Shown here: piece after piece, positions 986-58,010 of the stretch
Layout: each line of letters starts with the position of its first letter
Numbering within the stretch: position 1 is the first letter of the stretch
Assembly: GCF_003570985.1 (NCBI RefSeq)
Contig: NZ_QXIW01000031.1
Span: forward strand, 193,441-257,440
Direction of reading: 5' to 3'
DNA length: 64,000 nucleotides
DNA from: Candidatus Cryosericum hinesii
Lineage (GTDB): Bacteria > Caldisericota > Caldisericia > Cryosericales > Cryosericaceae
Program-made: the position numbers and the translations under genes
Notes under the pieces: model-generated
What the model saw: the letters and a program-made list of their open reading frames with translations, nothing else
The model's database searches: none
What the model was told of the DNA's origin: nothing

Positions 986-1462
986 CTAATGTCCCTTCCC
1001 CGCGATCATCTCCAATGCATGAGGGAGGAGAGGGATGAGGACGTCCATGCCGTCCTGAACCGCCTTGAGGCTGCCGGGAAGGTTGACGATGAGGGTGGTG
1101 GCTCGCAGGCCGGCCTCGGCGCGGGAGAGGCAGGCGGTCGGGACGCCCTTGTTGAGGCCGTAGAGACGGATGGCTTCGCTGATGCCGGGCGCGCGGCGGT
1201 CGACGACGGAGAGCGTCGCCTCGGGGGTAACGTCACGGGTAGAGAAGCCCGTGCCGCCCGTGGTGATGATGGCGTTCACGTGGCGTTCCGTGGACCACTG
1301 CTCAAGGATCCCGGCAATTTCGGCCTGCTCGTCGGGGACGATCGTCGCTTCCTCGATGGCCCAGCCGGCATCTGTGAGACGCTTTACAATAGCGGGCCCG
1401 CTCTCGTCGACGCGGCTCCCGGCGGCGCAACTGTCGCTGACGGTCAGAACTGCTGCTTTCAT
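986..1462 (-). CDS. mogA: MogA/MoaB-type molybdopterin adenylyltransferase
   Basis: This 158-residue protein should adenylylate molybdopterin, preparing the cofactor for metal insertion by MoeA. The MoCF-domain fold is recognisable from 'TTGGTGFSTRDVTPEA' at about residues 67-82 and 'NLPGSLKA' at 127-134, which bind the pterin and nucleotide. The length matches MogA/MoaB. Its ATG overlaps the stop of the MOSC gene by 4 nt (ATGA), so translation is probably coupled. It is the last gene of the tungstate/cofactor operon. Whether it is a true MogA or the related MoaB cannot be decided from sequence alone; both perform the same step in different lineages. Confidence 0.88.
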   Translation of the reverse strand: MKAAVLTVSDSCAAGSRVDESGPAIVKRLTDAGWAIEEATIVPDEQAEIAGILEQWSTERHVNAIITTGGTGFSTRDVTPEATLSVVDRRAPGISEAIRLYGLNKGVPTACLSRAEAGLRATTLIVNLPGSLKAVQDGMDVLIPLLPHALEMIAGKGH

Positions 1463-1914
1463 AGGGTTCCTCCTTTGCTGATAACGGTGATGATGTCGCC
1501 GGCCTCAAGTGTGCCGGGCGTGATGACGCGGGCGAAGATGCCCTCGCGGGGCATGACGCAGTCGCCGACCAGCTTGCGGATCTCACAGCCCAGGTGGCAC
1601 TCCTTGCCGATCTGGGTGATCTCCATCGTGACATCGTTGCCGATCTGGAGGCGTGTCCCGATTGGCAGGGTCAGCAGGTCCAGGCCCTGTGTGGTGATAT
1701 TCTCAGCGAAGTCGCCGGGCTGCAGTACCAGACCGTGGCCCTGCATCTTGTCGATGCTCTCCTGCGCCAGCAGGCTGAGTTGACGGTGCCAGTCGCCTGC
1801 GTGGGCATCGCCCTGCATGCCCAGCATGGTGATGGTGACGGGGCCCTGCAGGGGATGTTTGCGTGTGCCTTTCTGCTCAGAGATGTTGACCGAGACCACG
1901 ACGGGATGGTTCAT
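1459..1914 (-). CDS. MOSC domain protein
   Basis: A 151-residue stand-alone MOSC (molybdenum cofactor sulfurase C-terminal) domain. Family signatures are visible: 'GDAHAGDWHRQLSLL' near residues 35-49, 'PGDFAENITT' at 66-75, and the Cys pair in 'KECHLGC' (C106, C110), one of which is the expected sulfur carrier. MOSC proteins are thought to deliver sulfur to, or handle, pterin-bound Mo/W. The start at 1914 gives the usual N-terminus and overlaps the moaC stop by 4 nt. A longer in-frame reading runs back inside moaC and is not needed. Position between moaC and mogA supports a role in cofactor maturation; the exact reaction is unknown. Confidence 0.85.
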   Translation of the reverse strand: MNHPVVVSVNISEQKGTRKHPLQGPVTITMLGMQGDAHAGDWHRQLSLLAQESIDKMQGHGLVLQPGDFAENITTQGLDLLTLPIGTRLQIGNDVTMEITQIGKECHLGCEIRKLVGDCVMPREGIFARVITPGTLEAGDIITVISKGGTL

Positions 1915-2393
1915 GCGCCCTCCCACAGACCCGACTGGCCGCCGCTCTTGCGGACAAGGCGCAGGTCGGTAATGCGGATACCCCGTTCGACAGCCTTGCA
2001 CATGTCATACACGGTGAGTGCGGCGGTGGAGGCGGCGACCAGGGTTTCCATCTCGACGCCGGTCTCAGACTTGGTACGCGCGGTCGCTTCAATATCAACG
2101 GCATGATCGGTCTCGTTCAGTATCAGCGTCACACCGACGAAGGTCATGTTGATCTGGTGGCAGAGGGGAATCAGTTCCCACGTACGTTTCGCGGCCTGGA
2201 TGCCGGCAACCTGCGCAACCGTCAGGACGTCGCCTTTCTTGAGGTTGCCCGCCTTGATCAGCTCGAAGGTCGCGGGCGCCAGCAGGACACGGCAGCGGGC
2301 GACGGCCTCACGGACTGTCTCCAACTTGCCACCGACGTCTACCATGCGCGCGTTGCCCTTGTCGTCCAGATGTGTCAGTTCATTGCTTTCCAT
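1911..2393 (-). CDS. moaC: Cyclic pyranopterin monophosphate synthase MoaC
   Basis: MoaC turns the MoaA product (3',8-cyclo-GTP) into cyclic pyranopterin monophosphate, the second half of the first pterin step. The 160 residues cover the whole family length. Conserved blocks are 'LTHLDDKGNARMVDVG' near the N-terminus, 'ELIPLCHQI' around residue 75, 'TGVEMETL', 'YDMCKAVE' with the catalytic-region residues, and the closing 'RLVRKSGG'. It lies 1 nt downstream of moaA and overlaps the MOSC gene, so it is an internal operon member. Nothing unusual is seen. Confidence 0.95.
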   Translation of the reverse strand: MESNELTHLDDKGNARMVDVGGKLETVREAVARCRVLLAPATFELIKAGNLKKGDVLTVAQVAGIQAAKRTWELIPLCHQINMTFVGVTLILNETDHAVDIEATARTKSETGVEMETLVAASTAALTVYDMCKAVERGIRITDLRLVRKSGGQSGLWEGA

Positions 2394-2394
2394 G

Positions 2395-3360
2395 CTATCC
2401 TCCTATGCTTCCCATGGCGCGGCCATAGTCGCGGGCCGTCTCCGGCATACACTCGGGTTTTTGCTGCATCGCCCGCACAAGCAGCGCGCGCAGCGCCTCC
2501 TCGTTGACGACGGGGCGCAGGGCTGGCCGGATGTCGATCTCGTCGGCGCCGAACAGGCACAGCCGCAGGTGGCCGTCGGCGACCAGACGCAGACGGTTGC
2601 ACGTGGGACAGAAATGCTCGGTGACGGGCGCGATGACAGCCACTGTCCCAGGCGCTCCCGGGATACGGCGATACTCCTGCGCGGGGCCGTTGCCTCGTGG
2701 CTTGTCGGCTGGTTCCAGAGGGGCCAGTGCTTCCAGCTTGCGTCGCAGCTCGGCGGCGGGTACCAGGCAGTTGTCCTCCCCCAGTGGGCCGATGGGCATG
2801 TACTCGATGAAGCGGACCTCGATTGGCAGGCGCCTGGTAAGGTCGAGGTACGGCGCCAGGTCGTCGTTGACGCCACGCAGGACGACGACGTTGAGCTTGA
2901 TGGGGCTGAACCCTGTGTCGACGGCCGCTTTGAGGCCGGCAAGGGCGGTGTCCAGTGAGCCGAGACGTGTCAGGTGAGCGTAGACGGCGGGGTCCAGCGA
3001 GGGAAGGCCGATGTTGACACGTTTCAATCCTGCAGCCTTGAGTTGGCCGGCAAACTGAGGAAGCAGGATGCCGTTGGTGGTGAGCGAGAGGTCCTGCAGG
3101 CCGGGGACGGCCAGCAGCATATGCACCAGATCGACAATGCCGGGGCGGCGCAGCGGTTCACCACCGGTGAGGCGCACCTTGACGATGCCCTCGGAAACGG
3201 CGACGCGCATGAATGCGACGATCTCCTCGAACCGCAGGATGTCCTCGTGCTCCAGCATGGGCACACCCTCTTCGGGCATGCAGTAGCGGCACCGCAGGTT
3301 GCAGCGGTCGGTGACGGAGATGCGTATGTAATCGATGGTGCGTCCGAAACGGTCGGTCAT
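2395..3360 (-). CDS. moaA: GTP 3',8-cyclase MoaA (radical SAM)
   Basis: MoaA carries out the radical-SAM rearrangement of GTP that opens pterin synthesis. The radical-SAM triad is C20, C24, C27 in 'DRCNLRCRYCMPEEG'; the second [4Fe-4S] ligand set is C251, C254 and C268 in 'FCPTCNRLRLVADGHLRLC'. The protein ends in the Gly-Gly tail that the family needs for activity. At 321 residues it has normal length. Its ATG shares one base with the moeA stop (TGATG), indicating coupling. It is transcribed with the tup genes, so the pterin is probably made for tungsten as well as molybdenum. Confidence 0.96.
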   Translation of the reverse strand: MTDRFGRTIDYIRISVTDRCNLRCRYCMPEEGVPMLEHEDILRFEEIVAFMRVAVSEGIVKVRLTGGEPLRRPGIVDLVHMLLAVPGLQDLSLTTNGILLPQFAGQLKAAGLKRVNIGLPSLDPAVYAHLTRLGSLDTALAGLKAAVDTGFSPIKLNVVVLRGVNDDLAPYLDLTRRLPIEVRFIEYMPIGPLGEDNCLVPAAELRRKLEALAPLEPADKPRGNGPAQEYRRIPGAPGTVAVIAPVTEHFCPTCNRLRLVADGHLRLCLFGADEIDIRPALRPVVNEEALRALLVRAMQQKPECMPETARDYGRAMGSIGG

Positions 3361-4589
3361 CAGTGGTCCTCCGGCAAGTCGGTGAGCTGTACGTGAACGG
3401 TCTGGCCGGCTTCGACGACGATCGTATCCTCGGGGATGACCGCAATGCCGGCAGCGAGTGCCATGGACGTGAGGATGCCGGATCCCTGGGGACCGGTCGA
3501 CGTCGTGTGCAGGACTCCGTCACGCTCCTGCAGGCGGACCCGCACGAAGTGGGTACGTCCAGCGTCGACACCTTTGGCATAACGTTCGTCGAGAACGGCG
3601 GTGCGGACAGGACGGTACAACAGGGCGTGGCCCATCATGTGACGCACCAGGGGGCGCACGTATTCCTCCGCGCAGACCATGCAGGAGACGGGGTTGCCGG
3701 GCAGTCCGACAATACGTTTGGAACCCATGGTCCAGAACGCCATCGGCTTGCCGGGTTTCTGCTTGACACGCCAGAAGACCAGCTCTGCGCCCATCTCCTG
3801 CAGGACGTCCTTCACGAAATCGTAGTCGCCAACCGAGACGCCGCCGTTGGTGAGAACGACGTCGGTCTGGGCAAGTGCCCCTTCGAGCGCGGACCTCACG
3901 GCTTCACGCGTGTCGGGCACACGGGCGAAGACGACTGGTTCTGCCCCCATCGCGGCGACCTGTGCACGCAGCGAGTGTGCGTTGGCATCGCGGATCTGTC
4001 CGGGTCCAGGTATCTGAGCGGCGTCGACCAGCTCGCTGCCCGTGGTCAGGATGGCAACGCGTGTGCGTGGGTGGACTGTGACAGTGGCATGACCCGCAGC
4101 GGCGCACACGCCGACCTCGCCGGGGCGGAGGACTGTGCCGGCGGTGAGGACGACTACACCGTCCATCATGTCTTCGCCTGCCCGGCGAACGTTGACGCCG
4201 GTCTTGAGGGCCAGGAGGATGAACACGTCGTCGCCTTCCGCGCGGGTCACCTCGACGTGGACGACGGTGTCGGCGCCGTCGGGGAGGGGTGCACCTGTCA
4301 TGATACGGATGGCGGTGCCGGGCCGAACAGGCTGGGTCGCGACACTGCCTGCAGGGACATCTTCCAGGATGTGCAGGCGGACAGGCGTAGCCTCGGATGC
4401 CTGCTGAATGTCGGCGGCGATGACGGCGAACCCGTCCATGGCGGAGTTGGCGAAGGGGGGCACGTTTCCGTGTGCAATCACATCCTCCGCAAGTACCAGT
4501 CCTGCAGCCTCGTCGAGCAGCATGGTGACAGGGGTCAGCGGCGTTGCGTGGTCCAGTATCGCCTTGAGCGCTTCCTCGATGTTCAGCAT
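3360..4589 (-). CDS. moeA: Molybdopterin molybdenumtransferase MoeA
   Basis: MoeA inserts molybdate or tungstate into adenylylated molybdopterin. The 409 residues contain the full domain order: an N-terminal linker with 'PPFANSAMDGFAV' near residue 45, a beta-rich domain, the MoCF core with 'ILTTGSELVD' and 'TNGGVSVGDYDFV', then 'QKPGKPMAF' and 'GLPGNPVS', and a C-terminal barrel. It sits 45 nt downstream of tupC and directly before moaA. Grouping the metal insertase with a tungstate transporter suggests a tungsten role, but MoeA sequence alone does not reveal metal preference. Confidence 0.95.
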   Translation of the reverse strand: MLNIEEALKAILDHATPLTPVTMLLDEAAGLVLAEDVIAHGNVPPFANSAMDGFAVIAADIQQASEATPVRLHILEDVPAGSVATQPVRPGTAIRIMTGAPLPDGADTVVHVEVTRAEGDDVFILLALKTGVNVRRAGEDMMDGVVVLTAGTVLRPGEVGVCAAAGHATVTVHPRTRVAILTTGSELVDAAQIPGPGQIRDANAHSLRAQVAAMGAEPVVFARVPDTREAVRSALEGALAQTDVVLTNGGVSVGDYDFVKDVLQEMGAELVFWRVKQKPGKPMAFWTMGSKRIVGLPGNPVSCMVCAEEYVRPLVRHMMGHALLYRPVRTAVLDERYAKGVDAGRTHFVRVRLQERDGVLHTTSTGPQGSGILTSMALAAGIAVIPEDTIVVEAGQTVHVQLTDLPEDH

Positions 4590-4634: not shown

Positions 4635-5420
4635 TTACACAAGCAGCTCGCCTGCCACGAAGCGGCGGGTCCGGTCGTCGCGCGGATGGGTGAAGAAGTC
4701 GTCGCGTGGCGCCTGTTCTATGATACGTCCCTCGTGCAGGAACGCCACCTGGTCGGCGACACGACGGGCTTCAAAGATGTCCTGTGTCACGACGACAGCT
4801 GTCATGCCCAGGTCATCCCTCATGTGAAGCAGCAGGTCCTCGAGCAACTTGGTGCCGTAGGGGTCCAGGCTGGCAGACGGCTCGTCGAGGAAGAGCAGGC
4901 GTGGCTGCAGAGCGAGGGCGCGGGCTACCGACAGGCGTGCCGCTTCACCGCCGGAAAGCGACGAAGCGTGCTGGCGGGCGCGCTCTGCGATGCCGACCTC
5001 GCGCAGGGCGGCCATGGATCGCTCCTCTGCCTCGGCGCGGCTCACGCCACGCAATTGCAGCCCATACATCACATTGCTGAGGACCGAGCTGCTGAAGATC
5101 GCTGGGTGTTGAAACGCGAGCAGCATCCGGCGTCGCAGGGGCAGGTAGTGTGGGTCCTGAGTAGGGTTCCTGGTTGAAGCGTCGTAGGTGACGGTCGACA
5201 CACCTGGGACAATGCCGTCGTAGGCGACAGTACCTTCGTCGGCAGGTTCCAGCAACCCCAGGATGCGCAGGAGCGTCGTCTTTCCGGCTCCGTTCGTGCC
5301 AAGGATGACGGTAATGCTGCCTGCGGAGACGCTGAGGTCGATGTCCTGCAGGACCTCCCGGGCTCCGAAGCGTTTACGCAGGCCTCGCGCTGTGACCAGA
5401 TCAGTCGAGATGGCGGACAT
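4635..5420 (-). CDS. tupC: Tungstate ABC transporter ATP-binding protein
   Basis: The ATPase subunit of a TupABC-type oxyanion importer, 261 residues. It shows Walker A 'LGTNGAGKTTLL', signature 'LSGGEAARLSVARAL', Walker B 'LLFLDEPSASLDP' and an H-loop region after 'VVVTQDIFEA'. The ATG at 5420 lies inside the 3' end of tupB (20-nt overlap); the longer frame upstream encodes tupB in another frame and is not part of this protein. It lacks the C-terminal TOBE/molybdate-binding extension of ModC, consistent with Tup rather than Mod transporters. It is preceded by tupB and followed by moeA. Confidence 0.9.
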   Translation of the reverse strand: MSAISTDLVTARGLRKRFGAREVLQDIDLSVSAGSITVILGTNGAGKTTLLRILGLLEPADEGTVAYDGIVPGVSTVTYDASTRNPTQDPHYLPLRRRMLLAFQHPAIFSSSVLSNVMYGLQLRGVSRAEAEERSMAALREVGIAERARQHASSLSGGEAARLSVARALALQPRLLFLDEPSASLDPYGTKLLEDLLLHMRDDLGMTAVVVTQDIFEARRVADQVAFLHEGRIIEQAPRDDFFTHPRDDRTRRFVAGELLV

Positions 5421-6120
5421 TGCCGACCTCCGACGTGCCCTCGCCCAGGAGGGACAGGAGAGCGTTGACGAGAAAGGAGACGAGGAGCAGGATGATGCCC
5501 AGTGCAATGGCGCGGTCGAAGCTGCCCTCACGGGTCTCAAGCACAAGGGCCGTGGTGAGGGTTCGCGTCGCGCCCTGGATGTTGCCACCTACCAGCATGG
5601 CTGCACCAACCTCACTGATAGCGTTGCCAAACGCTGTAATGACGGCGCCCAGGATGGCCAGCCGTGCCTCGCGGAGCAGGGCAATGGACGCCTGCGTGCG
5701 TGTCGCGCCGAGCGTGAGCGCGAGATCAAAGACGCCCTTGTCGGCACCGCGCAGTCCAAGGACCGAAAGGCCTACGATGACCGGGAGAGCCAACGCGATC
5801 TGGGCGATCACCATCGCCGTTGGCGTGTAGAGCAGTCCCAGCGGCCCGAGAGGGCCGCTGCGGGACAACAGGAGGTATACCAGGAGGCCCGCCACTACGG
5901 GTGGAAACCCCATCAGGGTGTAGACGATGTTCATGACGCCCTGCTTGCCCCGGAAGTGGGAAAAAGCGAGCAGGATGCCGAGAGGGAACCCTGCGAGCGC
6001 CGACCAGAACAGGGCGCTCAACGTGACGCGGAGGGACGTTCCCAGGGCCTCGTACGTACCGGGGTCCAGGGAGACGATGAGCCGTACGGCCTGAACGAAG
6101 CCCCGGCCGATATCACCCAT
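5401..6120 (-). CDS. tupB: Tungstate ABC transporter permease
   Basis: A 239-residue inner-membrane permease with about five to six helices and a binding-protein-dependent transport signature around 'TLGATRTQASIALLREAR', the cytoplasmic loop that contacts the ATPase. The pattern 'SEVGAAMLVGGNI' is typical of TupB/WtpB-like permeases. It follows tupA after a 26-nt gap and its 3' end overlaps tupC. Together the three genes form a complete high-affinity tungstate uptake system. Confidence 0.9.
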   Translation of the reverse strand: MGDIGRGFVQAVRLIVSLDPGTYEALGTSLRVTLSALFWSALAGFPLGILLAFSHFRGKQGVMNIVYTLMGFPPVVAGLLVYLLLSRSGPLGPLGLLYTPTAMVIAQIALALPVIVGLSVLGLRGADKGVFDLALTLGATRTQASIALLREARLAILGAVITAFGNAISEVGAAMLVGGNIQGATRTLTTALVLETREGSFDRAIALGIILLLVSFLVNALLSLLGEGTSEVGNVRHLD

Positions 6121-6146: not shown

Positions 6147-7958
6147 CTACTTGGAGATCTCGAGACGGTAGATGTACTTGACGGTATTCACGAGGAACGT
6201 ACCATTCGTGGTCATGAGAGCCATGAAGCCGTCATCGGTCGAGAGTGTCGCACCGCCTTTGAGGTAGACGACTGTGATCTTCGTGCCGGTGCTTGTGTTG
6301 TAGATGTCGTTGTAATCCAGCGTCACGTGACTGCCGTCGGTGGCGGTCGCGATAACAGTCAGGCGCTCAGCGGCTGCAAGATCAGGCGAGATGACCTTCA
6401 GGATGTCGATGAGCTGGACACCGCCGTACGAAACCGGTGTCAGTGACTGGTTGTTTTGTGGGTAGACCTTGATGGTCGTCACAGGGAACTTGCGCACGTC
6501 GTTCAGGCGGTAGGCAATTGTCTTGCCGCCGGGGAGAACAATGTCGAGACTGCGCGTAGCCTTCCATTCGGTGGAGTCCGGGAAAAAGAGGGTCTGCCCG
6601 TACTGCTCGACGCCGAAGCTCTTGATGAGTTCCTGACCGGGCAGGCCGGTCATGAAATCAGCGAATCGAACGGCGAGGTCGACCTTGACCGTTGGATACT
6701 TGGCGGGATTGATGGGCATGAGGCCGTAGGGATTGAGCAGCCCTTGGGACCCCTGGACGAGGATCGGCAGGTTGATCTTGCCGCCTTTCTGATACGCGAG
6801 GTACGTGGCGCGGTCGGTCAGTGTATAGGCCTGCTTCTGGTCGGTCATCATGAGGACTTCACCCATCCCCTGTCCCGCGCTGAGATACCAGGGCTTGCCG
6901 GCAGGCGTGATGCCCGCTGCTTTCCAGATGTCGAGCTCCTTGGTGTTGGTGCCGGAGTTGTCGCCACGGCTGATGAAGGTCGAACCGGAAGCGGCAAGCT
7001 TCGTGAATGCCGCGGTTGCGTTGGTCATGCCCTTGATCTTCGCAGGGTCGCTAGCCGGTCCGACGATGATAAAATCGTTGTACATGACGTCGTCGCGGAA
7101 GAGGCCAAAGCCGTCGGCCATAAACTGATCTTCCTGGGCACGCGCGTGTACGAGCAGGACATCGGCGTCGCCCTTGCGGCCAGTCGTGATGGCCTGACCG
7201 GTGCCGACGGAGATGATCTTGACCTTCACGTGGTTGGACTTCTCGAAAATGGGGATAAGGAAGGTCAGGAGTCCAGAGTCATAGGTGGACGTCGTCGTAG
7301 AGAGGATCATCGACTGCGTTGCGGGCTCTTTGTAGTCGAGGATGGCAGGGAAGTAGGCGGCAGTCTGAGCACGGGTGATGGCAGAGGTCGGCTTGGTCAC
7401 ATCGGTGACCATACCTTCCTGTACACAGGCAGCAGCAGCTGTCCGGGCCCACTCTGAGAGATCATCTGATCCTGCGACCTTGTCCAGGACGACGTGCGTC
7501 GCCATACCGCGGATCTCGAAACCCATGCGCTGTGCGACGACAGCCATCGATTCCTCACGTGTGATATTGGCTGTGGGGTGAAAAGTCCCGTCCGGGTATC
7601 CGGAGACCCAGCCCTTGGCGATAGCGGCGTAGACAAGAGGAGCAGCCCAGTTGCTCGTGGGCAGGTCCTTGAGCATTTTGGCGGGCGACTGCACGGGGTC
7701 GAGCCCTGCAGAGCGCGCAAGTGCCACGATGAACTCGGCACGGGTGACAGAGGCGTCGGGGCGGAACGTCCCGTCCGGATAGCCCTTCATGAACCCTTTG
7801 GCGACGACCCGTTCGATGACGGCCTGGTCGGGACGCCCAGCAATGTCGGACAATGTTGCGGCGCGCGCCGGGAGAGCGGACGCCATAGACAGAAACGCGA
7901 GAATGAGTGCCGCCGCAAGGATGCGACGGACCAGCAGACGTGACAGACCTCGTTTCAT
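6147..7958 (-). CDS. tupA: SLH-anchored tungstate-binding protein TupA with C-terminal extension
   Basis: A 603-residue fusion. Residues 1-33 are a signal peptide. Three SLH repeats follow (about 37-86, 97-146, 158-206; 'GYPDGTFRPDASVTRAEF' is diagnostic), which bind secondary cell-wall polymer. A TupA-type binding domain starts near residue 217 with the tungstate-site motif 'STTTSTYDSGLL' and runs to about 460, with 'FISRGDNSGTNTKE' inside. The last ~135 residues ('PVSYGGVQLIDILKVI' and 'TVIATATDGSHVTL') resemble the molybdopterin-binding fold of sulfite-oxidase-type proteins. TupA proteins are usually about 270 residues, so this one is unusual. ATG 7958 follows AGGAGA; in-frame codons further upstream lie in the structured leader. 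Riboswitch control is proposed. Confidence 0.88.
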   Translation of the reverse strand: MKRGLSRLLVRRILAAALILAFLSMASALPARAATLSDIAGRPDQAVIERVVAKGFMKGYPDGTFRPDASVTRAEFIVALARSAGLDPVQSPAKMLKDLPTSNWAAPLVYAAIAKGWVSGYPDGTFHPTANITREESMAVVAQRMGFEIRGMATHVVLDKVAGSDDLSEWARTAAAACVQEGMVTDVTKPTSAITRAQTAAYFPAILDYKEPATQSMILSTTTSTYDSGLLTFLIPIFEKSNHVKVKIISVGTGQAITTGRKGDADVLLVHARAQEDQFMADGFGLFRDDVMYNDFIIVGPASDPAKIKGMTNATAAFTKLAASGSTFISRGDNSGTNTKELDIWKAAGITPAGKPWYLSAGQGMGEVLMMTDQKQAYTLTDRATYLAYQKGGKINLPILVQGSQGLLNPYGLMPINPAKYPTVKVDLAVRFADFMTGLPGQELIKSFGVEQYGQTLFFPDSTEWKATRSLDIVLPGGKTIAYRLNDVRKFPVTTIKVYPQNNQSLTPVSYGGVQLIDILKVISPDLAAAERLTVIATATDGSHVTLDYNDIYNTSTGTKITVVYLKGGATLSTDDGFMALMTTNGTFLVNTVKYIYRLEISK

Positions 7959-8079
7959 TAGTTCTCCTTTCCACAATGGGAGGCACGGCCGTTTCCCGCC
8001 GTACCCTGTCGGCTGTACGCCATGGCTTGCACCAAAGGTCGGACAGCTCGAAGAATTATTCTCTGCACTTGCAGAGAAC
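7959..8079 (-). promoter_or_regulatory. Moco/Tuco-type riboswitch leader of the tupA operon
   Basis: The tupA leader is nearly identical to the leader at 9842-9960: nine substitutions plus the last few bases before the ATG, and no gaps. Two stems show compensating changes: CUGUC/GACAG here (8042-8046 with 8006-8010) is CUGCC/GGCAG there, and GGUACGGC/GCCGUGCC here (7998-8005 with 7982-7989) gains a U-A in place of U-G there. The 3' part, GCCUCCCAUUGUGGAAAGG, closely matches what I remember of the Moco RNA upstream of E. coli moaA, and the Shine-Dalgarno GGAG can pair with CUCC. Known Moco RNAs switch genes off when cofactor is present. Family assignment is from memory, not a covariance search. 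Confidence 0.75.
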
Positions 8080-8082
8080 AAT

Positions 8083-8110
8083 AGTATAAACGTCTGCACC
8101 GGTACGGCAA
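8083..8110 (-). promoter_or_regulatory. Promoter of the tupA operon
   Basis: Reading the minus strand, TTGCCG (-35, plus 8105-8110) and TATACT (-10, plus 8083-8088) are separated by 16 bp. The same boxes and spacing occur before the aldehyde dehydrogenase leader. A 28-bp palindrome (8055-8082, arms TTCTCTGCA/TGCAGAGAA) overlaps the expected start point. It could be the first hairpin of the RNA or a repressor operator. Confidence 0.65.
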
Positions 8111-8123
8111 GAAACGGGGCAGC

Positions 8124-8173
8124 AACAGCGAAGAGGGTTGAGGCGTTGTACGGCCTCAACCCTCTTCGCTGTT
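8124..8173 (-). terminator. Terminator-like hairpin after the aldehyde dehydrogenase gene
   Basis: A perfect 20-bp inverted repeat (8124-8143 with 8154-8173) with a 10-nt loop lies 15 bp past the aldehyde dehydrogenase stop and just upstream of the tupA promoter. There is no long U-tract on the minus strand. It probably separates the two transcription units. Confidence 0.7.
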
Positions 8174-8188
8174 AAAACCGACTGTCTG

Positions 8189-9841
8189 TCAGTCGATCTT
8201 CTCGATCGTCACCTGTATCTGTTCGTGCATGTAGAGAGGCAGATAATAGACGCCGCCCGCATTCTTGCCGGTGGAACCCGAAGCTTTCCATCCACCGAAC
8301 GGCTGGAATCCCGGCCAGGCTCCCGTTGTGGCTCCCTGCGGGCGATTGGCGTAGGTGACGCCTGCCTGGATGTGGTCGAAGAACCAGTCGGTTTCCTCTC
8401 TGCTTCCATAGAAACCGGCGGTCAGCCCATAGTCAACGCTGTTGGTAATCTTCATGGCCTCGTCAAGCGATGATACACGTCCAATCATCGTGATCGGCAG
8501 GAACATCTCCGTGCTCCACAGGGAGTGCGTGAACGGGACGTCTGCCACGACCGTGGGAGCGCAGAAGAAACCATGCTCGCATGGCCCGTCCTGCAGGATC
8601 TTGCCGCCGCAGACAATCCGGCCGACCGCCTGGAGCTCTGCGCAGTAAGCGGTGTAGTCTTGCTGCGCCTTGCGGTTGATGACGGGGCCACACGCGACGG
8701 CAGCTTCGACGGGATTCCCCACGACAAGATGTGACGTCATGTCCGCGAGACGCTTCAGGAGTTCGTCATAGACGTCGTCCTCGACCAGTACCCGGGAGCA
8801 GGCTGAGCATTTCTGTCCCTGTAGTCCAAAGGCACTGCGCACGATACCTGTCGCGGCGTCATCCAGATTTGCGTGACGAGAGACAATCGTGGCGTTCTTC
8901 CCTCCCATCTCGAGCACAAGGGGTCTGACCCACTTTCCGCCCGCGAACGAGTGGTAGATGCCCATGCCGATTTCATATGATCCCGTGAACGTCAGCCCGT
9001 CGACCTCTGGGCTGTCGGTGAGTGTCTTACCGAGTGTTGAGCCGGGACCCGTCACGAAGTTGACGACACCTGCCGGCACTCCCGCATCCAGCAGAGTTCT
9101 GGCGATGAACCACGGTCCCCACGGCGTATCGGTTGCCGGTTTGATGACAACGGTATTGCCTGCAACCAGCGCTGTGCCTGTGGGACCTGCCGTGAGGGAA
9201 GCCGGGAAGTTGAATGGGCTGATAACCACCCAGACGCCGTATGGTCGCAATACGGACATGTTTGTACCGCGGTAGCCACGCAGTGGGTCGGACTCCATCG
9301 GCAGAGCTAGTCCATTGGCCCGTTCCATCTGACTGCACGCATAACGGATCATCTCGATAGCCTCGGCGCCATCACCAAGGCTTTCCATACGGTTCTTGCC
9401 GACTTCGAGCGACAGAATGGCTCCCAGAGTGAACACGCGTTCCTCAAGCAGATCGGCTGCGGCACGCATGACGCGCACGCGTTCCTTCCAAGGGGTTGCA
9501 GCCCACAGCGGTGCCGCCGCGCGGGCTGCTGTCAGTGCATCGGTCGCGTCCTGTTCCGTTCCTTTCTGGAAGTACCCGAGGACTGTTCCATCAGTGGGCG
9601 AGCGATCCTCGAACACGTCCGGACTGTAGTGCGACTCCCCGCCCCACAGCATGGGGTAGGCTGCTCCAAGAGTCGGTGTGAGGGTTTCAAGGGCACGTTC
9701 AAACCTTGCATGGAGTTCGGGTGGAGGCTCAAACATGGTCGCGTAGGTCAGCTTAAAGGGAATTTTATCTGTAGTCTGGCCACGTATAGACACTGCCGGA
9801 TGATCATAATCACCCGTTGCTGCTTTCGTGCATTCGTTCAT
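8189..9841 (-). CDS. NAD(P)-dependent aldehyde dehydrogenase, P5C-dehydrogenase-like
   Basis: A 550-residue ALDH-superfamily enzyme oxidising an aldehyde to an acid with NAD(P)+. Catalytic residues are visible: N211 in 'SPFNFP', E311 in 'LEMGGKN' and the nucleophile C345 in 'GQKCSACSR'. 'GQKCSACSR' and the C-terminal 'FQPFGGWKASGSTGKNAGG' place it with the RocA/PruA (L-glutamate gamma-semialdehyde dehydrogenase) branch, but substrate is not certain and no proline dehydrogenase gene is near. ATG 9841 follows GGAGAAG. Its leader is a near copy of the tupA leader, so expression is probably tied to Mo/W-cofactor status. That is odd for a metal-free enzyme and suggests it substitutes for a tungsten aldehyde oxidoreductase. 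Confidence 0.88.
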   Translation of the reverse strand: MNECTKAATGDYDHPAVSIRGQTTDKIPFKLTYATMFEPPPELHARFERALETLTPTLGAAYPMLWGGESHYSPDVFEDRSPTDGTVLGYFQKGTEQDATDALTAARAAAPLWAATPWKERVRVMRAAADLLEERVFTLGAILSLEVGKNRMESLGDGAEAIEMIRYACSQMERANGLALPMESDPLRGYRGTNMSVLRPYGVWVVISPFNFPASLTAGPTGTALVAGNTVVIKPATDTPWGPWFIARTLLDAGVPAGVVNFVTGPGSTLGKTLTDSPEVDGLTFTGSYEIGMGIYHSFAGGKWVRPLVLEMGGKNATIVSRHANLDDAATGIVRSAFGLQGQKCSACSRVLVEDDVYDELLKRLADMTSHLVVGNPVEAAVACGPVINRKAQQDYTAYCAELQAVGRIVCGGKILQDGPCEHGFFCAPTVVADVPFTHSLWSTEMFLPITMIGRVSSLDEAMKITNSVDYGLTAGFYGSREETDWFFDHIQAGVTYANRPQGATTGAWPGFQPFGGWKASGSTGKNAGGVYYLPLYMHEQIQVTIEKID

Positions 9842-9960
9842 GTCTTCTCCTTTCCACAATGGGAGGCATGGCCGTTTCCCGCCGTACCCTGCCGGCTGTA
9901 CGCCATGGCTTGCGCCGAAGGTCGGGCAGCTCGAAGAATTGTTCTCTGCAGTTGCAGAGA
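9842..9960 (-). promoter_or_regulatory. Second Moco/Tuco-type riboswitch leader, before the aldehyde dehydrogenase
   Basis: This is the sister of the tupA leader, with the same stems at plus 9925-9929/9889-9893 and 9881-9888/9865-9872, and the same GCCUCCC...GGAAAGGAG end running into the start codon. Differences from the other copy preserve or improve pairing, which argues for selection on RNA structure rather than a recent unselected copy. Moco and tungsten-cofactor (Tuco) versions differ by one stem; I cannot assign which without a covariance model. Confidence 0.72.
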
Positions 9961-9965
9961 ACAAT

Positions 9966-9993
9966 AGTATAGACGTCCGCACCGGTACGGCAA
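9966..9993 (-). promoter_or_regulatory. Promoter of the aldehyde dehydrogenase gene
   Basis: On the minus strand TTGCCG (plus 9988-9993) and TATACT (plus 9966-9971) are spaced 16 bp, identical to the tupA promoter. A perfect palindrome with arms ATTGTTCTCTGCA/TGCAGAGAACAAT lies at the start point. Confidence 0.65.
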
Positions 9994-10098: not shown

Positions 10099-13000
10099 AT
10101 GACGAAGCGACTGCAGTGGTGTCTGAGAATCATGGTAGTGGTGGCTCTGGTATTAGCGTGTGCGCTGTCAGGGAAGCCGGTTCTCAGTGCAGTGAACCTG
10201 CCCACGATCGACGCCGAATTTCTGGCCCGTGCCGGGTCATCGCCATCACCACAGGACGTCATCGTCCGCATGCAGGGTCTTCCGTTGGTCGGTAGAGTCC
10301 AGGATGCAGGAGCGGAAGGGTGGCTGGACACCGTGACCACGCACGCATCGGAAGCAGCGATCTCGCAGGAGCAAAATGTATTTTTGTTGTCGCTGGCGGC
10401 ACAGGGTGTCAGGTATACGATCAAGCAGCGACTGAGCGTGACCTTCAATGGTCTCGCACTGAGCGTTGTGGGGTATGACCTCGCAGCGGTTGCGGGGACG
10501 AACCATGTCTCGTTTGTCTACGAATCTCAGCAGGCGCAAGTCCTGGACGAGGATACAAATGCCGCCATGGGAGTGGATCAGGCGTTGTGGAACCGCACAT
10601 CGGCGGGGGGGCAAAAACTTGACGGAACCGGTACGACCATTGGCATCATCGACACAGGTATCGACTACATGCATCCGGACCTTGGCGGAGCGAAATTTCC
10701 CAATGCAAAGGTGGTGGGAGGATACGACTTCGCCGACAAGGACAGCGACCCCATTGACATTCAGGGCCACGGTACACACGTTGCAGGCATTGCCGCCGCG
10801 GACGGCAAGGTGCAGGGTGTCGCGCCAAAGGCGAAGCTTTATGCCTACAAGGTTTTCAGTGACCAGGGAGGAGGAGCTGCTGATGGGGACATCATTGCGG
10901 CACTTGACCGCTCCGTGCGGAACCGCTGCACAGTGGTCAACCTGTCCCTGGGCACGTCTGGGGGAACCGCCGATACGCCCGAGAACGAGTCGATCAACAA
11001 CGCGGTCAAGGCGGGTGTCGTAGTCGTCGCAGCGACGGGCAACTCCGGCCCACGTAACCCCGAGACCAACTGGCCCCTGGGTTCGCCGGCGACAGCGCTG
11101 AATGCCATCGCGGTAGCCGCCTCCAACGACGGCCCGTATCCAGTAGTGGAGGTTGTAACGCCGACCGGAACGGGGTTGGACAACATCATGGGTAGTTATG
11201 CCGACATCGCTCCAGCGTTCAAGGAAGGCTCCATGTACAGCATCGTGGATGCCGGGTATGGCTCGAAGGCGGATTTCGCTGCTGTGAACGTCACGGGCAA
11301 GGTCGCACTTGTCGAGCGGGGCCCTGTCGGGACCAGCGGGATCTACTTCCGCGACAAAGTCCTGAATGCGCAGGCGGCGGGAGCTGCCGGTGTCATCATC
11401 TACAACCACAGCCCTGGAGTCATTTCTATGACGCTCAGGGTAGCGGCTGGCGACGAGACCAGGAACTATATCCCCTGCATTGGCATCACCCAGGACGCAG
11501 GACTGGACCTCAAGATGTTGACGACGAGGGGACTTGTCGTCCGGTTTGGGACACGGAGCGACCTGGGGACGCTTGCAGACTTCAGCTCCATGGGTCCCAC
11601 CGAGGACTTTCACTTCAAGCCGGAGGTGTCTGCGCCCGGTGTCACGGTGAACTCGACGTTTCTGGGCGGCGAGTATGCCAGGCTGGACGGCACGTCGATG
11701 GCTTCGCCGGGGGTGGCCGGAGCCGTCGCGCTGATCAAGGCGGCACATCCCGACTGGACACCGCAGACGGTCAAGCTGGCGCTGATGAACACCTCCAATG
11801 TTCTTCGCAACTGGCAGAATGGCGAAGTCATCACGTGGACATTGCAGGGAGCCGGCCGGGTCGATGTACCGGCTGCCATCGACACTCCAGCCGTGGCCGA
11901 GGTAGCCACATCCGACGGAACGACGACGTTTCAGACAGGGACCGTTCTTGTCGACGATGACAGCATTGCGACTGCGACGACGATCACTATACGCAGTCTC
12001 TCGGATCATAGTGTGACTTTCTCGCCTTCGTTCGGCTGGACGATGGACGCGCGGGCAGGCGTGGAGGTGACTGTAGTCCCGTCATCTGTCGTCGTCGCAC
12101 CCGGCGGGACCGCGCAGGTGAGCGTGACCACGACTGTGAACCCGGCAACCGTCAAAGATGGGCCACACGAGGGGATGATCACCCTGCAGTCGATCAGCGG
12201 AATCTTGCACGTGCCCTACATCTTCTGGCGTGCGAGTGTTAAGGTCCCTGAACAGTTGAGCGAGATGCAGACGAGCACAGCAACCTTGGCGGCGCCCGGT
12301 GGCACGATGGACGTTCAGTTCAACATTGGCTACGGTGGCGTGCGACCTGCCGTGGAGGCAGGTGAAGGCCCCCAGGGTTCCAGCTTTGCATCGGAGGTCG
12401 TGGCTGCGGTCACGGGCATAGATGGCGTGACAACGTTCGGGACCGTGTACCGGAGGTCGCTGTTGCTCGTGGGCGACCACGGGTTTACGTGGAACGGTCG
12501 GGATGTTCACGGCAACCTCTTCCTGACCGACGGAGACTATCTCCTGAGGACATCGGTCCTCGAGAGTAACAACGATCCGGCCAACCTGCAGATCTCCGAG
12601 GCGGCGCATCAGTCGGTGCCCATTCATGTCATGGGCATGGCAGGTGTTCCGGTGCTCAGTCTGAACATCGTGGGCGGGAATCTGCGCGTGGGCCAGGACG
12701 TGACAGTCAGCCTGAGTGCCGACACCACGACGAGCATTGCAGGCATAGCGGCTGCCGTGCAATTCGAACCATGGTACCTATCGGTGAAGTCGGTCCAGGA
12801 AGGCGACTTCCTGAACCAGGGGGGAACAACCCCGTCGAGCTTTGCCTCCACTGTTGACGCCTTGGCGGGCAGCGTTGCAGTCAAAGGCGCGACAGGGATG
12901 GCCCAGGTCCAGGGGCACGGCAATGTGTGTACGATCACATTTACTGTCCTGCACGACGGTTCTACGGAATTGTGGCTTGGGAAGCCTCTGGCGACGAATA

Positions 13001-13245
13001 GCAGCGGGACGGTAGAAACGATCGCCCAGTCGCTGGCTGTGACGTTGCGGTCGGGAGCGAACGTCTGGGATATCGACGGCAACAAGCGCGTGGACCTTGG
13101 TGACATGGTCATTCTTGCCCGTGCCTATGGTTCGAAGGTCGGGGACAAGCAGTATGACAACACGGCAGACCTCAACGGCGATGGTCGCGTCGACGACGCC
13201 GACCTGCAGATCCTGCGCCAGCACTATGGCGACGTGTACCCCTAG
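10099..13245 (+). CDS. Secreted subtilisin-like protease with PA, cohesin and dockerin domains
   Basis: A 1048-residue exported S8 serine protease. An N-terminal signal peptide ('VVVALVLACALSG') and propeptide precede the catalytic domain: D185 in 'IIDTGIDYMHPDL', H224 in 'GHGTHVAGIAA', S533 in 'GTSMASPGVAGA'. A protease-associated (PA) insert lies at about 367-487. C-terminal beta-domains follow, including an FlgD-like Ig near 787-824, a cohesin-like domain at about 854-989, and a type I dockerin from about 990 with two Ca-binding loops ('DIDGNKRVDLGDM', 'DLNGDGRVDDADL'). ATG 10099 is preceded by AGGAGG. The next gene starts 9 nt later and has its own cohesin domain. Role: extracellular proteolysis, probably in a complex. 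Confidence 0.92.
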   Translation: MTKRLQWCLRIMVVVALVLACALSGKPVLSAVNLPTIDAEFLARAGSSPSPQDVIVRMQGLPLVGRVQDAGAEGWLDTVTTHASEAAISQEQNVFLLSLAAQGVRYTIKQRLSVTFNGLALSVVGYDLAAVAGTNHVSFVYESQQAQVLDEDTNAAMGVDQALWNRTSAGGQKLDGTGTTIGIIDTGIDYMHPDLGGAKFPNAKVVGGYDFADKDSDPIDIQGHGTHVAGIAAADGKVQGVAPKAKLYAYKVFSDQGGGAADGDIIAALDRSVRNRCTVVNLSLGTSGGTADTPENESINNAVKAGVVVVAATGNSGPRNPETNWPLGSPATALNAIAVAASNDGPYPVVEVVTPTGTGLDNIMGSYADIAPAFKEGSMYSIVDAGYGSKADFAAVNVTGKVALVERGPVGTSGIYFRDKVLNAQAAGAAGVIIYNHSPGVISMTLRVAAGDETRNYIPCIGITQDAGLDLKMLTTRGLVVRFGTRSDLGTLADFSSMGPTEDFHFKPEVSAPGVTVNSTFLGGEYARLDGTSMASPGVAGAVALIKAAHPDWTPQTVKLALMNTSNVLRNWQNGEVITWTLQGAGRVDVPAAIDTPAVAEVATSDGTTTFQTGTVLVDDDSIATATTITIRSLSDHSVTFSPSFGWTMDARAGVEVTVVPSSVVVAPGGTAQVSVTTTVNPATVKDGPHEGMITLQSISGILHVPYIFWRASVKVPEQLSEMQTSTATLAAPGGTMDVQFNIGYGGVRPAVEAGEGPQGSSFASEVVAAVTGIDGVTTFGTVYRRSLLLVGDHGFTWNGRDVHGNLFLTDGDYLLRTSVLESNNDPANLQISEAAHQSVPIHVMGMAGVPVLSLNIVGGNLRVGQDVTVSLSADTTTSIAGIAAAVQFEPWYLSVKSVQEGDFLNQGGTTPSSFASTVDALAGSVAVKGATGMAQVQGHGNVCTITFTVLHDGSTELWLGKPLATNSSGTVETIAQSLAVTLRSGANVWDIDGNKRVDLGDMVILARAYGSKVGDKQYDNTADLNGDGRVDDADLQILRQHYGDVYP

Positions 13246-18149: not shown

Positions 18150-18259
18150 CAATATTTGTGCAAGAGTTCTCCCACTTCTAAAGTGGCGAGATGAATTGCA
18201 TACATCTGCAACACTTTCGTTCTGCGGTATAATTAATAGTAGCAAAGGAGGTGAGCATC

Positions 18260-19405
18260 ATGCGTAAAGCGTACAAATTCCGGCTTTACCCGAATACCGA
18301 ACAGCAGGCAATGTTCGCAAAGGCTTTCGGATGCGCCAGGTTCGTCTACAACCAGATGCTCGCAGACAAGATCGTGCAGTATAAGACTGACAAGACCGTG
18401 CTGCACAATACTCCGGCACAGTACAAAGGACGTTTCAAGTGGTTGCGAGAGGTCGACGCATTCGCTCTTTGCAATGCTCAACTCCAATTGCAGACAGCAT
18501 ATACCAACTTCTTTCGACACAAGTCGGTTGGATTCCCCAACTTCAGGAGCAGGAAATCACATCGTGACAGCTACACCACGAATCTCATACATGACAATAT
18601 TTGCATCGAGAACGGACACCTGAAGTTGCCGAAGACCGGTCTAGTTTGTATCAAACTGCACCGGCAGATACCGGTAGATCACAAGATCAAATCCGTTACC
18701 ATTTCATGCACTTCGTCCGGCAGATACTATGCCGCTATTCTCACAGAGTACGAGTTCACACCTCCTGTAGTTGCGTTGGATGAATCCAAAGCTCTCGGTC
18801 TGGATTACAGCAGTCCCCACTTCTACGTCGATAGCCAAGACACGGAAGCCGATATGCCGCATTTCTACCGGGAAGCCGAAAGTATCTTGAACAGAGAGCA
18901 ACGCAGACTTTCAAGAATGGTTCGAGGCAGCAACAACTATGCCCGGCAGAAACGAAGGATTGCGGTGATGCTCGAACGCGTGTCGGACTGCCGCAAAGAC
19001 TGGCTTCACAAGCAGAGCACGGAACTTGCCAATAAGTGGGACTACGTCTGTGTTGAGGACATCAACCTGCGCGGGATGGCCGGATCGCTGAAATTGGGAA
19101 AATCAACCAATGACAACGGCTTCGGTATGTTCCGCCTGTTCCTTGACTACAAATTGGCAGAGAGAGGGAAACGACTGGTTACTATCAACAAGTGGTTTCC
19201 GTCAAGCAAGACGTGCCATGTTTGTGGAGCAGTTAATCATGCGTTGACGCTCAAGGATCGCGAATGGGATTGCGCTTGCGGCGCACATCTTCTCCGAGAT
19301 CTGAATGCGGCAATCAACATCAAGAACGCTGGTTTGTCTTTAGTCAACACGAACCGTGGGGTACACGGGGATAGCTCGTTGATACTGAGCAGATCTTGCT
19401 CTTGA
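18260..19405 (+). CDS. tnpB: TnpB RNA-guided endonuclease (IS200/IS605 OrfB)
   Basis: A 381-residue TnpB, the compact ancestor-like relative of Cas12 nucleases that uses an RNA from the element's 3' end. The RuvC residues are intact: D182 in 'ALGLDYSSPHF', E266 in 'YVCVEDINL', D347 in 'LLRDLNAAINI'. The zinc ribbon is C319, C322, C338 and C340. The N-terminal 'KAYKFRLYPNTEQ' is typical. ATG 18260 follows a strong AAAGGAGGTGA; GTG 18251 lies inside that site. A perfect TATAAT box is at 18228-18233. The gene appears functional rather than decayed. Confidence 0.93.
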   Translation: MRKAYKFRLYPNTEQQAMFAKAFGCARFVYNQMLADKIVQYKTDKTVLHNTPAQYKGRFKWLREVDAFALCNAQLQLQTAYTNFFRHKSVGFPNFRSRKSHRDSYTTNLIHDNICIENGHLKLPKTGLVCIKLHRQIPVDHKIKSVTISCTSSGRYYAAILTEYEFTPPVVALDESKALGLDYSSPHFYVDSQDTEADMPHFYREAESILNREQRRLSRMVRGSNNYARQKRRIAVMLERVSDCRKDWLHKQSTELANKWDYVCVEDINLRGMAGSLKLGKSTNDNGFGMFRLFLDYKLAERGKRLVTINKWFPSSKTCHVCGAVNHALTLKDREWDCACGAHLLRDLNAAINIKNAGLSLVNTNRGVHGDSSLILSRSCS

Positions 19406-30499: not shown

Positions 30500-30543
30500 A
30501 AAAGGGGGCAAGGACACCAGGAGGGCACCTGGTCTCCTTGCCC
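30500..30543 (-). terminator. Intrinsic terminator on the minus strand in a divergent region
   Basis: GGGCAAGGAGACCAGG and CCTGGTGTCCTTGCCC pair, followed on the minus strand by CCTTTT. It lies upstream, not downstream, of the small membrane gene, so it must end some other minus-strand transcript starting between here and about 30715. Apart from this hairpin and the promoter at 30607, the 311-bp intergenic stretch shows nothing I can name. Confidence 0.6.
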
Positions 30544-30606
30544 ACAATAATTGGACTGCGTACCGTCCGCATTTGTTCACAGCGATGGTCACGTCATGGT
30601 CTCTCG

Positions 30607-30635
30607 TTGTCGGGACACCGCAGTTATGATAGAAT
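30607..30635 (+). promoter_or_regulatory. Candidate promoter of the formate dehydrogenase operon
   Basis: TTGTCG (30607-30612), 17-bp spacer, TAGAAT (30630-30635), 79 bp before the FrhB-like start. Confidence 0.5.
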
Positions 30636-30714
30636 TCACATGGTGCGAGGTGTCTGTGGCCCGTCGCGTGGCAGCCGGCGTGGAATATGGTGTGATGGAA
30701 CCGAGGTGGCAACA

Positions 30715-31770
30715 ATGACAACAATTGGTGATCATCTGTACGCGCGCAGTACCCATGAGGAACTGCTGACTCGTGCCACGAACGGGGCGTTCGTGACGAC
30801 AGCCATGTGGTATCTGCTGTCGACAAAGCGGGTGGACGCGGTGCTGGGTGTAGAGCATGATCGGGAACGCAACTTGACGCATACCCGGTTCATCGATGAC
30901 CCTCGGGAAATATCTGAGCTTGCGGGTACGGTTGTCACCGCGCCCCTCAACATCGTCCAGACATTGCGCAAGTACGCCGGCAGTGGGCGCGTGGCCCTGC
31001 CGGTCATGCCCTGCGAGGAGAAGCTGCTGGACGTCCTCATTCACAAAGATGAACTGCCCGTGCAGCTGTTCCGCATCGGACTCGTATGCGGCGGCCTCTT
31101 CAGCGCGAACGACCTCGGCAAGGAGGTGAAGCGTCTCGGAAAGTCGCTGCTGGACGTCGAGCGCGTCATCCATGGTGAGGGGGGATACTCCGTCTCATTC
31201 CGGGGCGAGGAGCAGGTCCACGAGTTTCCGGAGCGGAAGACCGTGCGTCCGGCCTGCGAGCGCTGTGTGACGCCCGAGCCCGTCACCTCGCATTTTTCCT
31301 GCGGGTACTGGGGGACTGGAAGTGACCGGGGCAGGACGTACGTGACGGTGAACACGGCGGAGGCGGCCGAGCTTGTCGACGCAATGGTGCGCGACCGGGC
31401 CCTGGTGGTCGAGCCGGTTCCCGACGATGCCCGCGCCATGCGCAAGCACCTGCTGGACCTCAAGACGGACGCGTCATGGCGATATCGGCGCCGGCAGTTC
31501 GAGACCGACCTGGTGGAGACGGGTGAGCAGATCAACGCGTGTCCGCTCTGTGGCGAGTGCATGAAGGCCTGTCCTCTCCGGACCGATGAATATGTCCAGC
31601 ACCTGCTGGAGGGGGTGAAATCTCCAGCCGAATGGCTGGCCGCATTTGTCCTCGACCTGTACGATGAATGCGCCGAGTGTGGCCTGTGCAGTGAGCACTG
31701 TCCCATCACGTTGCCGTATGACCTGGTCATCGAGCATCAGCGTGAACTGAGGAAGACCCTGCCTCGATGA
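30715..31770 (+). CDS. FrhB/FdhB-like iron-sulfur flavoprotein, formate dehydrogenase beta subunit
   Basis: A 351-residue member of the coenzyme F420 hydrogenase/dehydrogenase beta-subunit family. The central region has the family pattern 'VMPCEEKLLDVL' and 'IGLVCGGLFS', followed by Cys positions near 'ACERC' that probably bind another cluster. Two ferredoxin-type [4Fe-4S] motifs lie at 276-286 ('CPLCGECMKAC') and 319-329 ('CAECGLCSEHC'). In bacteria such subunits use flavin to pass electrons between formate dehydrogenase and NAD(P)H or ferredoxin. ATG 30715 is the first start after the promoter at 30607; fdhA overlaps its stop (ATGA). Confidence 0.82.
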   Translation: MTTIGDHLYARSTHEELLTRATNGAFVTTAMWYLLSTKRVDAVLGVEHDRERNLTHTRFIDDPREISELAGTVVTAPLNIVQTLRKYAGSGRVALPVMPCEEKLLDVLIHKDELPVQLFRIGLVCGGLFSANDLGKEVKRLGKSLLDVERVIHGEGGYSVSFRGEEQVHEFPERKTVRPACERCVTPEPVTSHFSCGYWGTGSDRGRTYVTVNTAEAAELVDAMVRDRALVVEPVPDDARAMRKHLLDLKTDASWRYRRRQFETDLVETGEQINACPLCGECMKACPLRTDEYVQHLLEGVKSPAEWLAAFVLDLYDECAECGLCSEHCPITLPYDLVIEHQRELRKTLPR

Positions 31771-46751: not shown

Positions 46752-47174
46752 ATGAGACTATCCGTCATTGACGCGGAACGCTGTACAGGCTGCCAGATAT
46801 GCATGTTTGCGTGCACTCGCCGGCTGGGCTATGCGGGAATGGGCAAGACGGCAATCCACGTCAAGTCCGTGGGCGGCATGGAACATGGTCTTTCGGTGGT
46901 CGTTTGTCGAGCATGCCAGGACCCCCCGTGTGCCAAGGTATGCCCGGAGGATGCATTGGTCCTGCGCAAGGGCGGAGGAGTCCTTCTGGATCCCTCGAAG
47001 TGCACCGGCTGTGGACTGTGCCGGCAAGCGTGCATCGTCAGTGCCATTTTCTGGGACAAGGAAGCAGAGAAGCCGATCATCTGTGTGCATTGTGGCTACT
47101 GTGCCAAGTACTGCCCGCATGGAGTACTGGCGCTCGAAGAACGCCGCCAAGAGGTCTCCAATGCTGCCAAATGA
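46752..47174 (+). CDS. Four-cluster polyferredoxin, electron partner of AOR
   Basis: A 140-residue ferredoxin with 16 Cys in four [4Fe-4S] sets: 11/14/17/21, 52/55/60/64, 84/87/90/94 and 111/114/117/121, each ending the classic C-x2-C-x2-C-x3-C or a close variant. It resembles the small HycB/DmsB-like subunits and the AorA subunit of Aromatoleum-type aldehyde oxidoreductases. The start at 46752 follows AAGGAG. Its 3' end overlaps the AOR gene by 14 nt, so the two should be translated together and assemble. Confidence 0.88.
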   Translation: MRLSVIDAERCTGCQICMFACTRRLGYAGMGKTAIHVKSVGGMEHGLSVVVCRACQDPPCAKVCPEDALVLRKGGGVLLDPSKCTGCGLCRQACIVSAIFWDKEAEKPIICVHCGYCAKYCPHGVLALEERRQEVSNAAK

Positions 47175-55682: not shown

Positions 55683-55990
55683 GTTTTCTCCTCTCTTGAT
55701 GCGGATGTGTAGAACCTGTTCGTGGAATGCCAGAGCATCGTCAGGCTTGCAGGCCTGTCGACACCCCCTTTCCAAGAAAGCGGAAAGGCCTCACGACATA
55801 TTTTCCGTGAGGTCTTCTAGTTACTGCACAAGCTGAGGGCTTGGGTCCCTGCTCACTGCAGATTCCGGGCAGAATCCTGTCCGGCGGGTCTGAGGCACAG
55901 CCATCTGGCACCAGGCGTGAGCATGAACCGAATGGGTGTGGCGAGTCAAGGTATGAGACAAGAAAAGGGAACCATTTGATGTCCATGGTG
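55683..55990 (-). promoter_or_regulatory. Long structured leader of livK paralog 1
   Basis: About 300 nt separate the promoter from the livK ATG. Two adjacent hairpins occur: CCTCACG/CGTGAGG (55789-55812) and CCTTTCC/GGAAAGG (55767-55788). The second sequesters a ribosome-site-like GGAAAGGGGGTG (plus 55762-55773) that opens an 8-codon reading frame (55741-55764). The livK2 leader has a comparable layout. No T-box or known riboswitch motif was recognised. Confidence 0.45.
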
Positions 55991-57709: not shown

Positions 57710-58010
57710 CATGGTTCCTCCGGGATATAGGTTTGTGGTGTGTGGGTACAGAGGCTTTACGGAATCGCCGGTCGTGGCATCACCTCCTTCGACGAACGCA
57801 AACCGGCCTTGCAGAAATCTCCCCTGCAAGGCCGGTTTCGTCCGGTATGTTGGCGCGGTCAGACACGTGCGCTGGGTCAGTTGTGCTCGGCGTCGCTGTG
57901 GTCGTTCTCCTGCTGAGAACAGACGAACGGAAGACATGAAACGTGGCCATAGTGAGTGGGTGAGATGGTTCGACTGTCATGGAGAGCAGTACTGCACGTA
58001 TAACCATAAA
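57710..58010 (-). promoter_or_regulatory. Long structured leader of livK paralog 2
   Basis: About 300 nt. A perfect hairpin AACCGGCCTTGCAG/CTGCAAGGCCGGTT (within 57798-57838) is followed by GAAGGAGGTGAT (plus 57779-57790), which is almost fully complementary to the usual 3' end of 16S rRNA, yet sits about 75 nt before the real start. A 9-codon frame overlaps it (57757-57783). The layout parallels the livK1 leader. Confidence 0.45.

Follow-up and report, generated by a model that had tools for sequence, protein, structure and literature searches.

Introduction

In Regulski et al. 2008 (PMC2408646), riboswitches of the Moco/Tuco family (RF01055) that lack the P3 stem are correlated with tungsten-cofactor use, and the main text ties them almost exclusively to genes for MPT synthesis or Tuco use. 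An arrangement with the Shine–Dalgarno sequence (SD) inside P1 was argued there to repress E. coli moaA. The same text names no aldehyde dehydrogenase (ALDH), and it speculates that Tuco might repress putative Moco enzymes whose role a Tuco-using pathway can take over.

In B12 riboswitches, which offer the closest working model for the locus described here, a cofactor-sensing RNA represses a cofactor-independent enzyme (metE and other cobalamin-independent isozymes), and in the activating form a helix stabilised by the aptamer excludes a terminator (PMC10653944), the same logic as that predicted below for P1 in leaders of aldehyde:ferredoxin oxidoreductase (AOR) genes. For tungsten, the abstract of a study of Pelobacter carbinolicus reports that tungsten limitation switches isoenzymes in syntrophic ethanol/acetaldehyde oxidation (PMC4275255); the isoenzyme that takes over depends on molybdenum, and the abstract makes no mention of an RNA switch. 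A literature search that lay outside the supplements of PMC2408646 returned nothing relevant on Moco riboswitches with ALDH or P5C dehydrogenase. Opposite signs imposed by this riboswitch on AOR-family tungstoenzymes and ALDHs were likewise not found in the literature; prior notice is possible.

Two leaders of the Moco/Tuco family

The 64,000-nucleotide stretch of Candidatus Cryosericum hinesii DNA analysed here (the window) carries two near-identical leaders on its minus strand, each consisting of promoter, RNA and SD, one before tupA (8110-7956) and one before an ALDH gene (9993-9839). Their promoters are the same TTGCCG-16-TATACT, at 8083..8110 for the tupA operon and, as a duplicate, at 9966..9993 for the ALDH gene (both minus strand), and a promoter scan gave only these two promoter-like matches in the region (mean of shuffles 0.7). 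An earlier note on this DNA had described such a pair differing at nine sites. We also count nine differences from promoter to SD: the promoter spacer holds two of them and the RNA the other seven. The similarity ends immediately 3' of the SD. The description of the pair as tandem copies needs correction: there are two copies, but they serve separate transcription units, each with its own promoter and gene, so that what has been duplicated is a control region and not an aptamer within one UTR.

The twin RNAs are members of RF01055. A covariance-model search (cmscan, gathering cut-off 36 bits) gave full-length minus-strand matches for both, at 7948..8065 for the tupA copy (63.7 bits, E 5.6e-13) and at 9831..9948 for the ALDH copy (57.7 bits, E 3.1e-11), each more than 20 bits above the cut-off and with the same gap at P3. 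They share with the family as presented in the main text of PMC2408646 the aptamer core, P1, P2, P4 and the GAAA loop, the absence of P3 typical of the Tuco type, tup and moa targets, and, like E. coli moaA, an SD inside P1; they differ from it by an extra stem, P0. The earlier note had named as grounds for abandoning its Moco assignment the lack of a Moco match together with the lack of a conserved stem in relatives. The assignment holds, and nine further genomes of the genus have an orthologous leader before tupA. In the phylum (a sample of 54 genomes from two classes) RF01055 copies are present in 32 genomes, and the leaders of the genus can be aligned.

The absence of P3, a TupA-like protein and five AOR-family genes in the genome suggest that the twin leaders belong to the Tuco subtype, with the tungsten cofactor as the likely ligand. 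The Moco/Tuco cofactor itself is unstable.

Both the Rfam structure and the alignment of genus leaders contradict the covariation that had been offered as evidence for Moco identity. The proposed stem CUGUC/GACAG is pairable on paper, but the Rfam structure pairs CUGU with the ACAG of GUACAG (P2); the claimed pair is U.G in 8 of 10 genus leaders, and the true P2 of the ALDH copy has a C.A mismatch. The change read as UG to UA in GGUACGGC/GCCGUGCC is actually C-G to C.A, and breaks P4. The ALDH leader thus has one C.A mismatch in P2 and another in P4, and its affinity may therefore be lower. The differences that do preserve pairing are U.G to C-G in P2b and G.U to G-C in P0. The conserved junction nucleotides, core, P0, P1 and SD are intact in the ALDH leader.

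P0, which the earlier note did not mention, lies directly 5' of P1 in both leaders. It is a genus-specific stem of 13 bp including one G.U in the tupA leader (8055..8082, minus strand) and a perfect 13 bp in the ALDH leader (9938..9965, minus strand). Across the genus its arms keep G.U pairs and show one C-G/U-A exchange, and its loop measures 1-10 nt. This variation in loop length and the retained wobble pairs speak against a DNA operator, which we considered; an RNA stem appears more likely. P0 begins right after the -10 box in both copies and its outer pairs fall at the expected transcript start, an odd position for a stem that acts only as RNA.

Target genes and predicted repression

The tupA copy precedes a minus-strand operon in which profile matches identify a TupA-like tungstate-binding protein with SLH domains (6147..7958), a TupB-like permease (5401..6120), an ABC ATPase in the position of TupC (4635..5420, start approximate), MoeA (3360..4589), MoaA (2395..3360), MoaC (1911..2393), a MOSC-domain protein that elsewhere is fused to MoaC (1459..2001) and a MogA/MoaB-like protein (986..1462). 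This tupABC-moeA-moaA-moaC-MOSC-mogA series is a textbook target set for a Moco/Tuco riboswitch, and links the tupA copy to Mo/W cofactor genes.

The ALDH copy is the exception, and its target was not part of the earlier note. The gene (8189..9841, minus strand) encodes a P5CDH-like, NAD(P)-type aldehyde dehydrogenase of 550 aa (PF00171, E 8.5e-127). Its closest solved structures are 1-pyrroline-5-carboxylate dehydrogenases, but against the profile models of these enzymes it scores below the curated cut-offs (PRK03137, 407 bits against a cut-off of 648). Members of the ALDH superfamily work with NAD(P), without Mo or W. A pattern scan of the minus strand for intrinsic terminators found none in the interval separating the ALDH gene from the tupA promoter. 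An inverted repeat with arms of about 22 bp and no U-run on the minus strand lies between the ALDH stop and that promoter (8118-8172).

In both leaders P1 is formed by UUCUUC and GGAGAA, and GGAGAA, the 3' strand of P1, is also the SD (7962..7967 in the tupA leader and 9845..9850 in the ALDH leader, minus strand), with the start codon 9 nt after it. Because the SD is the 3' strand of P1, translation is predicted to be OFF when the cofactor is bound. Folding gave for both leaders a predicted SD exposure of about 0.33 when free and 0.00 with P1 formed. Nearly all tup/mod-linked copies in the phylum have the SD at P1 and a start 7-13 nt downstream (the leaders of G052, G018, G036 and G041a and the P1 register of G011_C57 were read by eye from sequences and alignments). 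Both leaders are thus modelled as translational OFF riboswitches, a sign that follows from the predicted fold.

AOR-linked leaders and predicted activation

A third RF01055 copy lies elsewhere in the genome, ahead of genes for a ferredoxin-like protein, an AOR and an oxidoreductase; upstream of the four remaining AOR genes a search gave no Moco RNA even when the threshold was relaxed. The P1 of this third copy is short, and its SD, GGGAGG, is separate from P1 and complementary to CCUCCC of the aptamer. In all eight leaders of this ferredoxin-AOR type, folding with P1 forced raised the predicted SD exposure, and they are therefore predicted to be ON. In the phylum's other AOR-linked type, 9 of 10 leaders have a terminator that uses the 3' strand of P1 as its 5' arm. 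Terminator and P1 are thus mutually exclusive, and ON is again predicted. In this model, bound tungsten cofactor would activate AOR genes through a P1 that either blocks the terminator or frees the SD. The AOR leaders of the phylum are interrelated and may go back to one or two ancestral events, and outside the phylum several AOR leaders have no recognisable platform. As a counter-case, an AOR gene of G018 lies inside the tup operon, behind an OFF-type leader.

One AOR-family tungstoenzyme gene lies in the window itself (46768-48927, plus strand, 719 aa from the first listed start), with no Moco RNA upstream. The same is true of an iron-sulfur subunit gene followed by one for a formate-dehydrogenase-like molybdo/tungstopterin enzyme (30538-33812, plus strand). 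Elsewhere, formate-dehydrogenase-like genes stand behind Moco RNAs in G160 (C44:24100, L173) and G296 (C1:1870146, L177), and strong terminators there draw on the 3' strand of P1, an ON-type layout again.

A probable enzyme swap

We consider it probable that the twin OFF leaders and the ON leader of the AOR operon form a tungsten enzyme-swap circuit. It builds on aptamers, SDs in P1, gene targets and a recurring ALDH link that are observed directly, and on a ligand, a regulatory sign and substrates shared by ALDH and AOR that we infer. Bound cofactor would stabilise P1 and sequester the SD, turning translation OFF in both leaders. At the tupA copy this would act as feedback on tungstate uptake and pterin-cofactor synthesis, and at the ALDH copy the cofactor-free aldehyde dehydrogenase would be made when the tungsten cofactor is short. 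The third copy would respond with the opposite sign, with the ferredoxin/AOR operon ON in the presence of cofactor. Aldehyde oxidation would then be W-dependent if cofactor is plentiful and would rely on the NAD(P)-dependent ALDH if it is not.

The parallel with B12 riboswitches and metE extends to the target, a PF00171 ALDH of an NAD(P)-dependent family that does not need the sensed cofactor, and to the presence in the genome of a cofactor-dependent counterpart, AOR. Aptamer and cofactor are different, and the isozyme relation is established for B12, whereas the substrate overlap is presumed here. Counting against a swap, glutamate semialdehyde, the usual substrate of P5C dehydrogenases, is to our knowledge not an established AOR substrate. 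If the swap is real, it would extend to tungsten the cofactor-independent-isozyme logic best known for B12 riboswitches, with a single aptamer regulating in opposite directions the enzymes that compete for one step. Two questions become testable: whether Moco RNAs without P3 respond to the tungsten cofactor, and which ordinary ALDHs replace AOR-family tungstoenzymes, for many of which no substrate is known.

Origin of the ALDH copy

In relatives a subtilase gene lies upstream of the tupA leader, whereas here the ALDH gene and the second leader lie in between. The subtilase of the window has PA, cohesin and dockerin domains (10099-13245, plus strand) and is divergent from the ALDH gene. The upstream flank of the ALDH leader resembles that of G007. 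The window ALDH was found in no other genome of the genus and groups in a tree with Anaerolineaceae, and no Moco RNA was found before its nearest homologues in the named genomes of that family, so that the link in this genome is a single case. The simplest story would be the gain of a foreign ALDH gene and duplication of the promoter-riboswitch block.

Such a history would also fit an accidental capture, in which the block was duplicated as the foreign ALDH inserted between the subtilase gene and tupA and supplied expression only, with cofactor control of no selective value. The end of the repeated block at the SD, the ancestral flank kept by the ALDH leader (as in G007), the lack of the ALDH elsewhere in the genus and the two C.A mismatches are all consistent with it. 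We nevertheless regard it as unlikely, given that core, P1 and SD are preserved in the ALDH copy and that other ALDH lineages were independently joined to such a riboswitch and have kept it across genera, as described below.

Recurrence of the link to aldehyde dehydrogenases

Within the phylum, three other genomes have an ALDH gene after a Moco RNA (G018, G036 and G052). The idea of an ALDH link arose from the phylum itself. An unselected sample of 386 genomes was then surveyed, and the genes after 86 copies outside the phylum were read. Six of the 86 copies are followed by ALDH genes, against 0.05-0.35 expected if ALDHs make up an assumed 0.06-0.4% of genes (binomial P < 2e-6 for assumed backgrounds up to 0.4%). 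Overall, 10 of 138 copies in seven families have the link, and in this first survey all nine other ALDH-linked genomes encode AOR.

In the class to which one of these genomes belongs, a Moco RNA lies 65-110 nt upstream of a P5CDH equivalog in 16 of the 54 genomes having that ALDH, and 15 of these 16 encode AOR. The ratio of AOR-positive to AOR-negative genomes is 15:1 when linked and 9:29 among the class's other P5CDH genomes (Fisher P 1.9e-6), although genomes of a class are related and the P values overstate their independence. One family of the class has the link in 13/13 AOR-positive and 1/13 AOR-negative genomes. Co-loss of the whole tungsten regulon could give the same pattern.

In a tree, riboswitch-linked ALDHs occupy four separate positions, and reconstruction forces at least five label changes. 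The recruited ALDHs come from three or more unrelated lineages. Most linked ALDHs elsewhere are of the P5C-dehydrogenase type, and many linked ALDHs outside this genome are reached via a short ORF starting at the P1 SD. G302 and G165 have non-P5CDH ALDHs, an ExaC-like one and another. In both, the riboswitch SD is followed by a short ORF of about 22 codons (MRF-x-x-SDY...FFYP), which seems to be conserved from one species to the other (L138 around 3472-3355 and L132 around 420-620). The ExaC-like ALDH behind this ORF in G165 seems lost save for its first codons.

The ALDH might not substitute for AOR but serve another need of cofactor-poor cells, such as proline, arginine or glutamate semialdehyde catabolism, or redox balance with idle formate dehydrogenase and AOR. 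Most linked ALDHs are P5CDH equivalogs, P5CDH is nearest to the window ALDH among solved structures, and the window encodes a formate-dehydrogenase-like enzyme. Since non-P5CDH ALDHs are linked too (G302/G165) and the link tracks the presence of AOR, we think this quite unlikely. That the ALDH leader is a decayed copy which has lost ligand binding and leaves ALDH constitutive would agree with its lower score than the tupA copy and its two helix mismatches, but is highly improbable given a score still 21 bits over the cut-off, conserved junction nucleotides that are kept and unchanged P0, P1 and SD. Extending the swap circuit to many anaerobes, with one aptamer class turning AOR ON and repeatedly recruited, unrelated NAD-dependent ALDHs OFF, is a tentative step for which we find the balance nearly even, tipped slightly towards doubt.

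Other features of the window

The window also contains a TnpB-like transposase ORF with a C-terminal zinc ribbon (18251-19405, plus strand). Two closely similar binding proteins of the branched-chain-amino-acid type are encoded on the minus strand (54537-55775 and 56552-57937), and both genes adjoin one Liv-type transporter.
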